Assembly: GCF_013408685.1 (NCBI RefSeq)
Contig: NZ_JACBZY010000001.1
Location: forward strand, 2,108,001 to 2,172,000
Direction of reading: 5' to 3'
Length of the DNA: 64,000 nucleotides
Source: Schumannella luteola
Lineage (GTDB): Bacteria > Actinomycetota > Actinomycetes > Actinomycetales > Microbacteriaceae
The translations under genes and the position numbers were made by a program. The notes under the pieces were generated by a model, which worked only from the letters and a program-made list of their open reading frames with translations, ran no database searches and was not told the origin of the DNA. This document shows positions 28,041-31,928 of this stretch, piece by piece; the stretch's first letter is position 1, and each line of letters starts with the position of its first letter.

Positions 28041-28087
28041 CCACAAGATATTGGGGTCGAACTGGAATGGACCCCGATATATAGTGG
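28041..28087. promoter_or_regulatory. Pair of NrdR boxes
   Basis: CCACAAGATATTGGGG (28041-28056) and CCCCGATATATAGTGG (28072-28087) match the NrdR box pattern ACAC-W-ATATAT-W-GTGT with a few changes, and start 31 bases apart, the usual spacing. NrdR represses ribonucleotide reductase genes. The second box overlaps a TATAGT -10 element. Confidence 0.8.
28057..28085 (+). promoter_or_regulatory. Likely nrdA promoter
   Basis: A TCGAAC -35-like element (28057-28062) and TATAGT (28080-28085) with a 17-base spacer. The -10 lies inside the second NrdR box, so repressor binding would block it. Transcription from here gives a leader of about 195 bases before the nrdA ATG, in which I recognise no riboswitch. 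Confidence 0.5.
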
Positions 28088-28287: not shown

Positions 28288-30765
28288 ATGGCCATCACCG
28301 TCGTCAAGCGCAACGGAGAGCGCGAGCCCTACGACGCGAACAAGATCAACCTGGCCATCGAGCACGCGAGCCGCGGTCTCGACGACAGCATCACCTGGGT
28401 CACCCAGATCGCCAGCGAACTCGAGCTCACGCTCTTCGACGGCATCACGACCCAGCAGCTCGACGAGGCCGTGATCCAGGTCGCCCTGCAGAACGTCAAG
28501 GACGACCCGCAGTTCGACACCGTGGCCGCCCGCCTGCTGCTCAAGACCATCTACAAGCGCGTGCTCGGCGACTACGACACCGACGCCGAGCTCAAGGCGC
28601 TGCACGCCGAGCACTTCGTCGCCTACGTCAACCAGGGCGTCGACGAGCTGCTGCTCGACTCGCGCTTCACGACCGGCATCTTCGACCTCGACCGCCTCGC
28701 GGCCGCCCTCGAGCCCGAGCGCGACAAGCTGCTCAAGTACATCGGCGCCGTCACGCTCAACAACCGCTACGGCATCAAGGCCCGCGACAACGAGCCGCTC
28801 GAGGTTCCCCAGTACTTCTGGATGCGCATCGCGATGGGCCTCTCGCTCAACGAGCCCGACGCCACCAGCCACGCGATCGCCTTCTACGACAAGATGTCGA
28901 AGCTCGAGTACCTCGCGGCCGGCTCGACCCTCGTCAACGCGGGAACCTCCTACCCGCAGCTCTCCAACTGCTTCGTCATGGAGATGCAGGACGACATCGA
29001 GCACATCGCCAAGAGCGTGCGCGACGTCATGTGGCTCACCAAGGGCACCGGCGGCATCGGCCTCTCCGTGTCGAAGCTGCGCGCCCAGGGCTCGCCCATC
29101 CGCTCGAACAACACGACGAGCACCGGCCCGATCCCGTTCATGCACACGATCGACTCGGTGCTGCGTGCGGTCAGCCGCGGAGGCAAGAAGTTCGGCGCCC
29201 TCTGCTTCTACATGGAGAACTGGCACCTCGACTTCCCCGAGTTCCTCGACCTGCGTCAGAACTCCGGCGACCCCTACCGCCGCACCCGCACCGCCAACAC
29301 GGCCGTCTGGATCTCGGACGAGTTCATGAAGCGCGTGCAGAACGACGAGGACTGGTACCTCTTCGACCCGCTCGAGGTCAGCGACCTGGGCGAGCTCTAT
29401 GGCAAGGCCTTCTCGGAGCGCTACGCCGAGTACGCCGCCAAGGCCGAGGCCGGCGAGCTCAACATGTTCAAGAAGATCCGCGCCCGCGAGCAGTTCAAGG
29501 CGATCCTGATCTCGCTCCAGACCACCAGCCACCCGTGGCTGACCTGGAAGGACACGATCAACAACCGCGCCCTCAACAACAACACGGGCACGATCCACCT
29601 CTCGAACCTCTGCACCGAGGTCTGCCTGCCGCAGGACGTCGACAACGTCTCGGTCTGCAACCTGGCGTCGATCAACCTGCCGCGCCACCTCGTGCGCGGC
29701 GAGGACGGTCAGCTCGGCTTCGACTGGGACCTGATCGCCGAGTCGGCCCGCCTGGCCGTGCGCCAGCTCGACAACCTGCTCGACATCACCCTGTCGAGCG
29801 TGGCCGAGGCCGACTTCTCGAACCAGCAGAACCGCGCCATCGGCCTGGGCGTCATGGGCTTCACCGACATCGTCGAGCGCCTCGGCATCTCGTACGAGTC
29901 GGAGGAGGCCTACGACCTCATCGACGAGATCATGGAGCACGTCTCCTACGCGGCCATCGAGGAGAGCGTCAAGCTCGCCGAAGAGCGCGGCTCGTACCCG
30001 AACTTCGCCGGCTCGCGCTGGTCGGAGGGTCTCGTGCCCTTCGACTCGATCGCCCTCACCGAGGCCGACCGCGGCATGGAGATCAAGGTCGACCGCACCA
30101 CGCGCCTCGACTGGGACGCGCTGCGCGCCAAGGTCAAGGGCGGCATGCGCAACGCGACGCTCATGGCGATCGCGCCGACCGCATCCATCGGCCTCGTCGC
30201 CGGCACCACGCCCGGCCTCGACCCGCAGTTCTCGCAGATCTTCAGCCGCGCGACCAGCAACGGCAAGTTCCTCGAGATCAACCACAACCTGGTCAACGCG
30301 CTGCGCGAGGCGGGCATCTGGGAGCAGGTGCGCGAGCGCATCCTGCGCAGCCAGGGCGACATCCAGAGCATCGAGGCGATCCCCGACGAGATCAAGAACG
30401 TCTTCAAGACGAGCTTCCAGCTCTCGCCGTACGCCTTCCTCGACGTCGCCGCGCGCGCCCAGAAGTGGGTCGACCAGGCGATCAGCCGCAACATGTACCT
30501 CGAGACGCGCGACCTCGGCGACATGATGGACATCTACTACGGAGCCTGGGAGCGCGGCGTCAAGACCACGTACTACCTGCACGTGAAGCCGCGTCACACC
30601 GCCGAGCAGTCGACGGTCAAGGTCAACAAGACCGAGGACCTGGATGCGCAGAAGACCGCCAAGCGCGGCTTCGGCGCCGCCGCGCCGGCGACCGCGGGCG
30701 CCTCCTCCGAGGCTGCTCCGAGTGCGGCCCCGGCCCGCCGCGGATTCGGTGGACTGGGCAAGTGA
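28288..30765 (+). CDS. nrdA: Ribonucleoside-diphosphate reductase, class I large subunit, lacking the C-terminal Cys pair
   Basis: 825 residues with a strong AGAAGGAG ribosome site. An ATP-cone lies at 3-95. The catalytic core has C228 (LSNCFVM), N440/C442/E444 (SNLCTEVCLP), C457 (SVCNLASINL) and the Tyr pair in KTTYYLHVKP. It reduces ribonucleotides to deoxyribonucleotides with the NrdB radical partner. The protein ends in an Ala/Pro-rich flexible tail with two RGFG units and stops at GLGK, without the redox-active Cys pair that normally regenerates the active site. That pair appears in the next small frame. A sequencing error is possible but is not required by anything seen. nrdB follows. 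Confidence 0.93.
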   Translation: MAITVVKRNGEREPYDANKINLAIEHASRGLDDSITWVTQIASELELTLFDGITTQQLDEAVIQVALQNVKDDPQFDTVAARLLLKTIYKRVLGDYDTDAELKALHAEHFVAYVNQGVDELLLDSRFTTGIFDLDRLAAALEPERDKLLKYIGAVTLNNRYGIKARDNEPLEVPQYFWMRIAMGLSLNEPDATSHAIAFYDKMSKLEYLAAGSTLVNAGTSYPQLSNCFVMEMQDDIEHIAKSVRDVMWLTKGTGGIGLSVSKLRAQGSPIRSNNTTSTGPIPFMHTIDSVLRAVSRGGKKFGALCFYMENWHLDFPEFLDLRQNSGDPYRRTRTANTAVWISDEFMKRVQNDEDWYLFDPLEVSDLGELYGKAFSERYAEYAAKAEAGELNMFKKIRAREQFKAILISLQTTSHPWLTWKDTINNRALNNNTGTIHLSNLCTEVCLPQDVDNVSVCNLASINLPRHLVRGEDGQLGFDWDLIAESARLAVRQLDNLLDITLSSVAEADFSNQQNRAIGLGVMGFTDIVERLGISYESEEAYDLIDEIMEHVSYAAIEESVKLAEERGSYPNFAGSRWSEGLVPFDSIALTEADRGMEIKVDRTTRLDWDALRAKVKGGMRNATLMAIAPTASIGLVAGTTPGLDPQFSQIFSRATSNGKFLEINHNLVNALREAGIWEQVRERILRSQGDIQSIEAIPDEIKNVFKTSFQLSPYAFLDVAARAQKWVDQAISRNMYLETRDLGDMMDIYYGAWERGVKTTYYLHVKPRHTAEQSTVKVNKTEDLDAQKTAKRGFGAAAPATAGASSEAAPSAAPARRGFGGLGK

Positions 30766-30878
30766 GCGCGATGAACGACACCGCGACGTTCGACGCCGTC
30801 GGCGGATCGACCGGCACCTGGGACTACGAGGTGCCCGTCGACCCCATGGACGAGCTGCAGTGCGAGAGCTGCCAGTAG
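30762..30878 (+). CDS. Tiny frame with the NrdA-like Cys-x-x-Cys tail
   Basis: 38 codons from a GTG that overlaps the nrdA stop (GTGA), or 35 from the ATG at 30771. The product is a short linker (TFDAVGGSTGTWDYEVPVDP) ending MDELQCESCQ. That is the type of tail that, at the end of class I large subunits, passes electrons from thioredoxin to the active site. It is in the -1 frame relative to nrdA; no canonical slippery heptamer is visible. So it is either a separately translated redox tail, a product of frameshifting, or the result of a base error. nrdB begins 52 bases later. Confidence 0.65.
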   Translation: MSAMNDTATFDAVGGSTGTWDYEVPVDPMDELQCESCQ

Positions 30879-30929: not shown

Positions 30930-31928
30930 ATGGCCATCCTCGGCACCGGAATCAAGGAAGGGCTGCTGCTCAAGCCCGTCACCTACAAGTGGGCGATGGA
31001 CCTCTACGACCAGGCGGTCGCGAACACCTGGTTCCCGAACGAGATCCAGCTCGGCGAGGACATCGCCGACTTCAAGAAGATGACCGACGAAGAGCGTCAC
31101 GCGATCACGTTCCTCATGTCGTACTTCAACCCGAACGAGCTGCTGGTCAACAAGGCCCTGGCCTTCGGCGTCTACCCCTACGTCAACGCTCCCGAGGCGC
31201 ACCTCTACCTCGCGAAGCAGATGTGGGAGGAGGCGAACCACTGCATGTCGTTCGAGTACGTGCTCGAGACCTTCCCGATCGACCGCAACGAGGCCTACAA
31301 CTCGCACGTCGACGTGCCGTCGATGGCGAAGAAGGAGGAGTTCGAGGTCAACTTCATCCGCCGCATGACGGAGGAGACCCTCGACATCACCACCACCGAG
31401 GGCAAGCAGGACTTCATCCGCAACCTCGTGGCGTACAACATCATCCTCGAGGGCATCTGGTTCTACTCGGGCTTCATGGTGGCGCTGTCGTTCCGTCAGC
31501 GGAACCTGCTGCGCAACTTCGGCTCGCTCATGGACTGGATCGTGCGCGACGAGAGCCTGCACCTGAAGTTCGGCATCAACCTGATCCTCACGGTGCTGGA
31601 GGAGAACCCCGACCTGCAGACGGAGGAGTTCGCCGCCGAGATCAAGCAGATGATCGTCGACGCCGTGTCGATGGAGGAGGAGTACAACCGCGACCTCCTG
31701 CCGAACGGCATCCTCGGCCTCAACGCGAACTACATCAACCAGTACGTGAAGTACCTGGCTGACCGTCGCCTCGAGGAGCTCGGCTTCGAGCCCGAGTACA
31801 ACGTGTCGAACCCGGCGAAGTGGATGGCGGCGGCGAACGACACGCTGCAGCTCGTCAACTTCTTCGAGTCGACGAACACCTCGTACGAGTCGAACGCCTC
31901 GGCGACCGTCGCGTCGAAGAGCGAGTGA
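30930..31928 (+). CDS. nrdB: Ribonucleoside-diphosphate reductase small subunit, Phe-type (class Ic-like)
   Basis: 332 residues with a GAGAAAGAAG ribosome site. All six metal ligands can be placed: E70, E101, H104, E174, E208 and H211. Spacing is 31, 3, 70, 34 and 3 residues, as in class I R2 proteins. The residue four after H104, the position of the radical Tyr, is F108, and the first ligand is Glu rather than Asp. Both features characterise class Ic proteins such as the Chlamydia enzyme, which uses a Mn/Fe cofactor. So this subunit probably carries a Mn(IV)/Fe(III) cluster and no tyrosyl radical. It is co-transcribed with nrdA. Confidence 0.9.
   Translation: MAILGTGIKEGLLLKPVTYKWAMDLYDQAVANTWFPNEIQLGEDIADFKKMTDEERHAITFLMSYFNPNELLVNKALAFGVYPYVNAPEAHLYLAKQMWEEANHCMSFEYVLETFPIDRNEAYNSHVDVPSMAKKEEFEVNFIRRMTEETLDITTTEGKQDFIRNLVAYNIILEGIWFYSGFMVALSFRQRNLLRNFGSLMDWIVRDESLHLKFGINLILTVLEENPDLQTEEFAAEIKQMIVDAVSMEEEYNRDLLPNGILGLNANYINQYVKYLADRRLEELGFEPEYNVSNPAKWMAAANDTLQLVNFFESTNTSYESNASATVASKSE

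Follow-up and report, generated by a model that had tools for sequence, protein, structure and literature searches.

A separate gene for the C-terminal cysteine tail of class I ribonucleotide reductase in Schumannella luteola and other Microbacteriaceae, with copies in phages and plasmids

In the textbook class I ribonucleotide reductase (RNR), the catalytic chain ends in a flexible tail that bears the electron-relay cysteines. In yeast Rnr1, this tail can act on the neighbouring subunit. In the accessible parts of two published studies, class I enzymes are described as forming an active-site disulfide at each turnover that is re-reduced by C-terminal cysteines, CxxC being present in 1737 of 2022 class I sequences (PMC9531940), and their C-termini are described as disordered and carrying a double-cysteine motif (2022 survey, PMC9669993). 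The closest described system in which the redox cysteines are encoded apart is the class II enzyme NrdJa/NrdJb of P. aeruginosa. There the disulfide-exchanging cysteines are on a separate 229-residue subunit, NrdJb, encoded in one operon with NrdJa; according to the accessible part of that report the split is thought to derive from a fused ancestor and is called the only split RNR in a non-viral organism (PMC4520616). Here we describe a split class I enzyme in a window of 64,000 nucleotides (the whole stretch of DNA analysed) from the genome of Schumannella luteola (family Microbacteriaceae; assembly GCF_013408685.1, contig NZ_JACBZY010000001.1, positions 2,108,001 to 2,172,000), in which nrdA lacks the cysteine pair and the tail is a small gene of its own. 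Like NrdJa/NrdJb, it has the redox cysteines on a separate polypeptide. Unlike NrdJa/NrdJb, it belongs to class I and works with NrdB, its tail gene has only 25-38 codons, and it has a second, dispersed gene and phage copies, neither of which is described for NrdJa/NrdJb in the accessible part of PMC4520616.

The nrdA locus and the proposed role of the tail

The genome of S. luteola is complete, in a single contig of 3.75 Mb, and has one PF02867 and one PF00268 match, so that the locus encodes the sole RNR of the cell. Its features in the window are:

28288..30765, + strand: nrdA, class I RNR catalytic subunit of 825 aa, ending RRGFGGLGK, without a C-terminal Cys pair
28969..28971, + strand: codon of Cys228 (active site), by alignment to solved RNRs
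29611..29613, + strand: codon of Cys442 (thiyl-radical position), by alignment to solved RNRs
29656..29658, + strand: codon of Cys457 (active site), by alignment to solved RNRs
30762..30878, + strand: gene of the putative redox-tail microprotein, with a GTG start at 30762 (38 aa) or an ATG start at 30771 (35 aa)
30861..30872, + strand: CESC, the tail Cys pair (codons 30861-30863 and 30870-30872)
30930..31928, + strand: nrdB, radical-generating subunit of 332 aa (PF00268)

NrdA has the ATP cone (PF03477), all-alpha (PF00317) and barrel (PF02867) domains of Pfam and matched NCBIfam NF005101 at 1603 bits. Its only cysteines are residues 228, 306, 442, 446 and 457. In two alignments to solved RNR chains, which we take to be P. 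aeruginosa and human NrdA, C228, C442 and C457 each stood opposite a cysteine. In the human enzyme, C218 and C444 form the disulfide and C429 the thiyl radical, and C228 and C457 are taken to be the disulfide pair of the window NrdA.

A preliminary description of this DNA, made from its sequence alone, had stated that NrdA ends at GLGK without a Cys pair and that an overlapping frame of 38 or 35 residues ends MDELQCESCQ. Both statements are correct: no cysteine follows residue 457, and the tail frame overlaps the nrdA stop by GTGA, in the -1 frame relative to nrdA. Its product ends YEVPVDPMDELQCESCQ, with PMDELQCESCQ as the last residues, and nrdB adjoins it downstream, giving the operon order nrdA-tail-nrdB. 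Both the GTG and the ATG start are found at the equivalent place in two relatives (G003 and G004). The back-translated end motif matched once in the window and in none of 100 dinucleotide shuffles. The peptide had no match in Pfam or NCBIfam, and its second copy in the genome (see below) had none below E 0.24. A redoxin (NrdH or glutaredoxin fold, with CxxC near the N-terminus) was considered as the identity of the tail and rejected, since neither peptide matched a redoxin family.

The tail is very probably a microprotein that acts in trans to reduce the active-site disulfide of NrdA and is in turn reduced by a protein of the thioredoxin type. Each turnover would leave the C228-C457 disulfide in NrdA. 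The CxSC pair of the free peptide would reach the active site by way of the YxVPVDPMDxLQCxSCQ end and exchange the disulfide, after which the peptide would depart or remain loosely docked, to be re-reduced by what may be a thioredoxin- or NrdH-type protein. Tails would usually be supplied by two host genes, the operon copy and a stand-alone copy behind an NrdR-type operator, and phages and plasmids would supply additional copies. The same chemistry is expected of ordinary class I NrdAs with a fused CxxC tail (Demequina, Cellulomonadaceae and other relatives), which have the same end sequence, CPVDPMExLQCESCQ; their tail is covalently attached, whereas here it is a separate product, usually of two genes. 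As in yeast Rnr1, the tail would serve an active site to which it is not joined, although the yeast tail is still part of a subunit within the same dimer. NrdH, glutaredoxin and thioredoxin are small dithiol carriers feeding RNR, as the peptide would be. The tail peptide, however, is too short for a redoxin fold and would take the place of the attached tail, relaying between redoxin and active site.

Searches of the openly accessible literature, most subscription papers lying outside their reach, gave no description of a class I tail on a chain of its own, and the accessible parts of PMC2795772 and PMC5819950 contain nothing on one. The letters of the motif matched only an unrelated psychology paper.

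Conservation and origin of the split

We searched 199 genomes with the tail peptide and an NrdA fragment, taking the family Microbacteriaceae as 118-120 genomes; counts of tail copies are lower bounds. Five family genomes with weak tail matches (E 0.19-0.96; G006, G059, G082, G090, G096) and six genomes of the order with a distant NrdA (38-43% identity; G126, G144, G160, G175, G180, G188) were not fetched. A strong tail match was found in all 55 family genomes having this NrdA. It was absent from family genomes without this NrdA, except for two incomplete ones (85% and 77% complete) in which no NrdA was detected (Fisher's test for co-occurrence in the 118-120 family genomes: p < 1e-30). Among the 71 family genomes examined for other RNRs, 34 of the 35 without this NrdA had another PF02867 RNR; G068 (83% complete) had neither.

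The tail frame, which the preliminary description suggested looking for in relatives, adjoins nrdA in 53 of the 55 genomes. The 3' end of nrdA was parsed in 51 of them (G067, G072 and G094 were unparsed, and G026 is at a contig end; the tail frames of these four were nonetheless recorded). None of the 51 NrdAs had a fused Cys tail, the arrangement that would have spoken against a split, and in 50 of them no cysteine follows the barrel, the exception being G013. The split of NrdA and tail is firm, and the idea of a separate peptide, proposed to act in trans, is strongly supported by the comparison, with a separate tail in 55 of 55 genomes. Host tail genes have about 25-38 codons.

The preliminary description had offered a second arrangement, in which -1 ribosomal frameshifting near the nrdA stop fuses NrdA and tail into one chain. 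The tail frame of the window is indeed -1 and overlaps the stop, and -1 is the commonest relation among the 51 genomes (37). However, the tail is in frame 0 after the stop in seven genomes and in +1 in five, and is absent from beside nrdA in two. Such unequal frames cannot be explained by a shift site, and start-stop overlaps of the GTGA kind would by themselves favour the -1 relation. Moreover, the tail ends 62-180 nt beyond the nrdA stop, where measured, so that its position is not conserved, and second copies are distant from nrdA, 54 of them behind NrdR boxes of their own. Fusion by frameshifting was rejected on these frames, distances and unlinked genes, and we regard it as very unlikely.

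Even less credible is a sequencing error at the stop, or decay of the tail to a remnant. The layout is odd, and the draft relative G013 has a run-on nrdA frame, but a base error cannot account for this layout recurring in 53 genomes and in a complete, single-contig source genome, and was rejected on these grounds. The enzyme is, besides, the sole RNR of the cell, and the tail is under constraint: over its last 17 codons, variation is about threefold higher at third positions than elsewhere.

In other families of the order the tail is attached. All seven NrdAs fetched from sister families (G128, G141, G146, G162, G168, G177, G194) carry it fused and end CP(V/I)DPxExLxCxxCQ; the Microbacteriaceae tail copies seen have no such additional Cys preceding P(V/I)DP. 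A maximum-likelihood tree was computed from 46 NrdAs, a 47th row being too short, and in it a single branch with support of 100/100 separated 35 split from 11 fused NrdAs. The nearest NrdA to that of the window, 97% identical, was from a Schumannella sp. (Microbacteriaceae). The tree suggests one origin, the tail having become detached from NrdA once, in the Microbacteriaceae line. This single branch, like the second boxed gene and the phage and plasmid copies described below, goes beyond the preliminary description. The motif was also found in at least 120 named genome stretches, which overlap partly with the searched genome set. Among the 120 listed, 14 were fused, 40 were separate just past nrdA, and 66 had a separate tail with no nrdA upstream. 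Among 80 of these considered by title, one split contig was labelled Cellulomonadaceae and two separate ones Acidobacteria, all three being metagenome bins.

It is possible, if less probable than free exchange, that the peptide is a fixed third subunit tightly binding NrdA. NrdJb binds NrdJa in this manner, at about 1:1 with an apparent dissociation constant of 260 nM (PMC4520616, accessible part). The motif [RK]G[FI][GA] is kept after the barrel of NrdA, twice in 42 and once in nine of the 51 parsed proteins, and could be a dock. RGFG motifs are, however, also present in the linkers of fused NrdAs, so that they do not by themselves indicate docking of a free chain. Moreover, a conserved end, Y-x-V-P-x-D-P-M-D-x-L-Q-C-x-S-C-Q, is common to operon, boxed and viral copies, and the N-termini vary. 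This shared end fits one docking mode for all of them.

The second tail gene and its NrdR boxes

The end motif had exactly two exact matches in the 3.75 Mb genome, and the pattern read backwards had none. The second match is a tail gene elsewhere in the genome, which, like nrdA, is preceded by two NrdR-type boxes:

1317835-1317912 (genome coordinates): second tail gene, 25 aa, MDNDSIDGYDIPVDPMDLLQCDSCQ, with two NrdR-type boxes upstream (promoter region at 1317723-1317771)
28041..28056 (window), + strand: NrdR box 1 upstream of nrdA, CCACAAGATATTGGGG, in tandem with box 2, the starts 31 bp apart
28072..28087 (window), + strand: NrdR box 2 upstream of nrdA, CCCCGATATATAGTGG

A box-pair pattern for this genome matched at exactly two places, one upstream of nrdA and one upstream of the second tail gene (control: 0); because the pattern was drawn from these two sites, only its rarity elsewhere is informative. 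The genome has an nrdR gene. For the family, a box-pair model was trained on nrdA promoters only (pair in 28 of 31; the three left out were all of the fused type) and applied to 130 tail genes of 57 genomes. The pair was found in 54 of the 77 tail copies away from nrdA, with scores of 15.7-42.1 bits, all higher than the best of 2600 shuffles preserving base content only (8.2 bits), and in none of the 53 nrdA-adjacent copies. One boxed copy each was present in 54 of the 57 genomes; none was found in the fetched loci of G016 (82% complete) and G107 (draft, 97%). In the 28 nrdA and 54 tail promoters the box starts are 31-33 bp apart, leaving 15-17 bp between the boxes. According to the accessible part of PMC12051234, box pairs with spacers of 14-17 bp are bound by the NrdRs of four bacteria. 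From the predicted boxes we infer that NrdR represses the tail genes, and two genes could allow tail supply to be set apart from NrdA supply. In G019 (0.93 Mb) and G056, the one tail match among the matches listed for each genome is unlinked to nrdA and follows NrdR boxes. Therefore the unlinked gene must serve there, if NrdA works in these genomes with a tail.

The function of the extra copies is read from sequence and operators only, and the stand-alone and viral copies might instead be regulators or inhibitors of NrdA, or work with a different enzyme that depends on thioredoxin. We consider this improbable. The end motif is kept in the extra copies bar a few changes (70 distinct copies, gathered by a pattern that demanded the Cys pair), no further tail is among the matches listed for G019 and G056, and family genomes without this NrdA lack a strong tail match, save the two incomplete ones.

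Several observations weigh against a free tail, supplied from two genes, that reduces NrdA in trans. In G013 (L178:980-1116), a draft genome 86% complete with 5% contamination, the nrdA frame has no stop and the tail lies inside it, in another frame. The ratio of nonsynonymous to synonymous polymorphism (pN/pS) of the tail, 0.24 for the 51 distinct copies next to nrdA and 0.23 for 70 distinct others, is biased low because the 130 copies were gathered by a pattern demanding both cysteines and so were picked by their conserved end, Cys pair included. In favour of the tail, a search of family loci that did not demand Cys found C..C in 123 of 123 DPM[DE] frame ends, overlapping loci being counted twice. 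The box pair is lacking in 23 of the 77 copies away from nrdA, and G027, although 99% complete, has no boxed copy in its fetched loci. That the box-less host copies are mobile is shown only in part: at four loci, four of ten neighbour proteins match phage families (L045, L048) and six match none. Finally, the whole evidence base is genomic, and both the expression of the tail genes and the reduction of NrdA by the free peptide are predicted from it.

Tail copies in phages and plasmids

The separate tail motif was found in at least 120 viral contigs, and in all 120 listed it stands in a separate frame. A chance motif was rejected, as the reversed motif found no viral contig. Measured from stop to stop, the 120 frames have 16-208 codons (median 39; one is cut by a contig end); these lengths are quoted because the start-choosing rule used for viral frames favours lengths near 26. 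An nrdA or nrdB match was present on the examined stretch in only four of the 120 contigs. All ten large neighbour proteins on seven viral contigs matched phage families (tail, head, endolysin, primase, methyltransferase, integrase and polymerase). A further form, DPQ[DE], was found in 29 viral contigs, always as a separate frame, and neither NrdA nor NrdB was on the stretch examined. Among 117 viral copies tested, none had the NrdR box pair (upstream DNA was too short for the test at three viral loci and one genome locus), and phage copies may therefore escape the host operator. Among isolated phages, CMP1 and CN1A of Clavibacter and phiPsal1 of Pontimonas have the tail, unannotated, between annotated genes. 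Of 21 matching plasmid records, 19 were from Microbacteriaceae. Matches to plasmids of Halomarina and Vibrio (E 5 and 7), to Mycobacterium and uncultured phages (E 7-9) and to a single-stranded RNA phage (E 9) were taken as chance. Two other viral tail types, compared with isolated phages, gave no match or a match stopping before the cysteines.

On plasmids, a 33-residue tail of Leifsonia sp. ZF2019 (L059:3953-4054, WP_223361114.1) is annotated as ribonucleotide-diphosphate reductase subunit beta, probably an erroneous transfer of the name. In two Clavibacter plasmids (L056 and L060) the tail gene neighbours genes for a single-stranded DNA-binding protein and an ArdC-like protein, which may point to a module for replication or transfer.

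Some viral loci differ from the common form. A viral contig of 95 kb (L353) has nrdA and nrdB matches just downstream of the tail gene and is possibly from a phage with its own split RNR; its nrdA, a frame of 1120 residues, perhaps has an inserted segment. In L424, L430, L431, L445 and similar viral loci, tails of about 45-55 aa begin with a charged stretch, possibly a helix, and continue into DPQDxLNCEGCQ; the one longer tail tried had no relative among isolated phages. Gene 27 of Pseudanabaena phage Pan2, a phage assigned to a cyanobacterium, encodes a short annotated protein with a tail-like end, CPNDPADLVSCESCQ (L421:2493-2576). The match is weak (E 0.1), and a DPA-type motif modelled on it found no viral contig; the Pan2 peptide therefore remains an isolated and unproven lead.

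The tail motif also ends longer frames in bacterial genomes. In G116 (L117:844-1137) and G072 (L163:544-771, minus strand) it is fused, on draft contigs of 51 and 66 kb, to an NrdH-like redoxin domain; the NrdH model matched at E 1.4e-9 and 1.7e-6, short of its curated cut-off. In L117 the redoxin CxxC appears to be SxxS, judged by eye against E. coli NrdH. The same contigs of G116 and G072 hold frames of no known family that end in the motif (L118 and L164, VTRFCGVFSD...AHGDEPGDQ), and another such frame is in G004 (L179); for the portions of L118 and L179 compared with Pfam and NCBIfam, no match was convincing.

On balance, we favour the wider view that RNR tails are free, exchangeable microproteins forming their own layer of control over deoxynucleoside triphosphates (dNTPs), in which the host would keep a spare under NrdR, and phage and plasmid tails of about 20-50 residues would speed re-reduction of the host RNR in trans. 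Our guess is that a phage or plasmid bringing its own tail could increase the output of RNR if re-reduction is the limiting step. Because some phage tails show the additional Cys or the DPQ form that fused-type hosts have, such tails may also act in hosts with a tailed NrdA.

In many genera of one family, the tail has thus been cut off and kept as a separately operated gene. Because a free peptide lends itself to titration, labelling and exchange, it becomes testable how a tail reaches the active site and withdraws from it. Genes of this class, with a few dozen codons, escape annotation, as in the three isolated phages, and are present in at least 120 viral contigs, and in 29 in the other form. 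If the proposed role is true, phages tune the dNTP supply of their hosts with a single tiny gene, and viral tails would be, to our knowledge, the smallest phage metabolic genes known.

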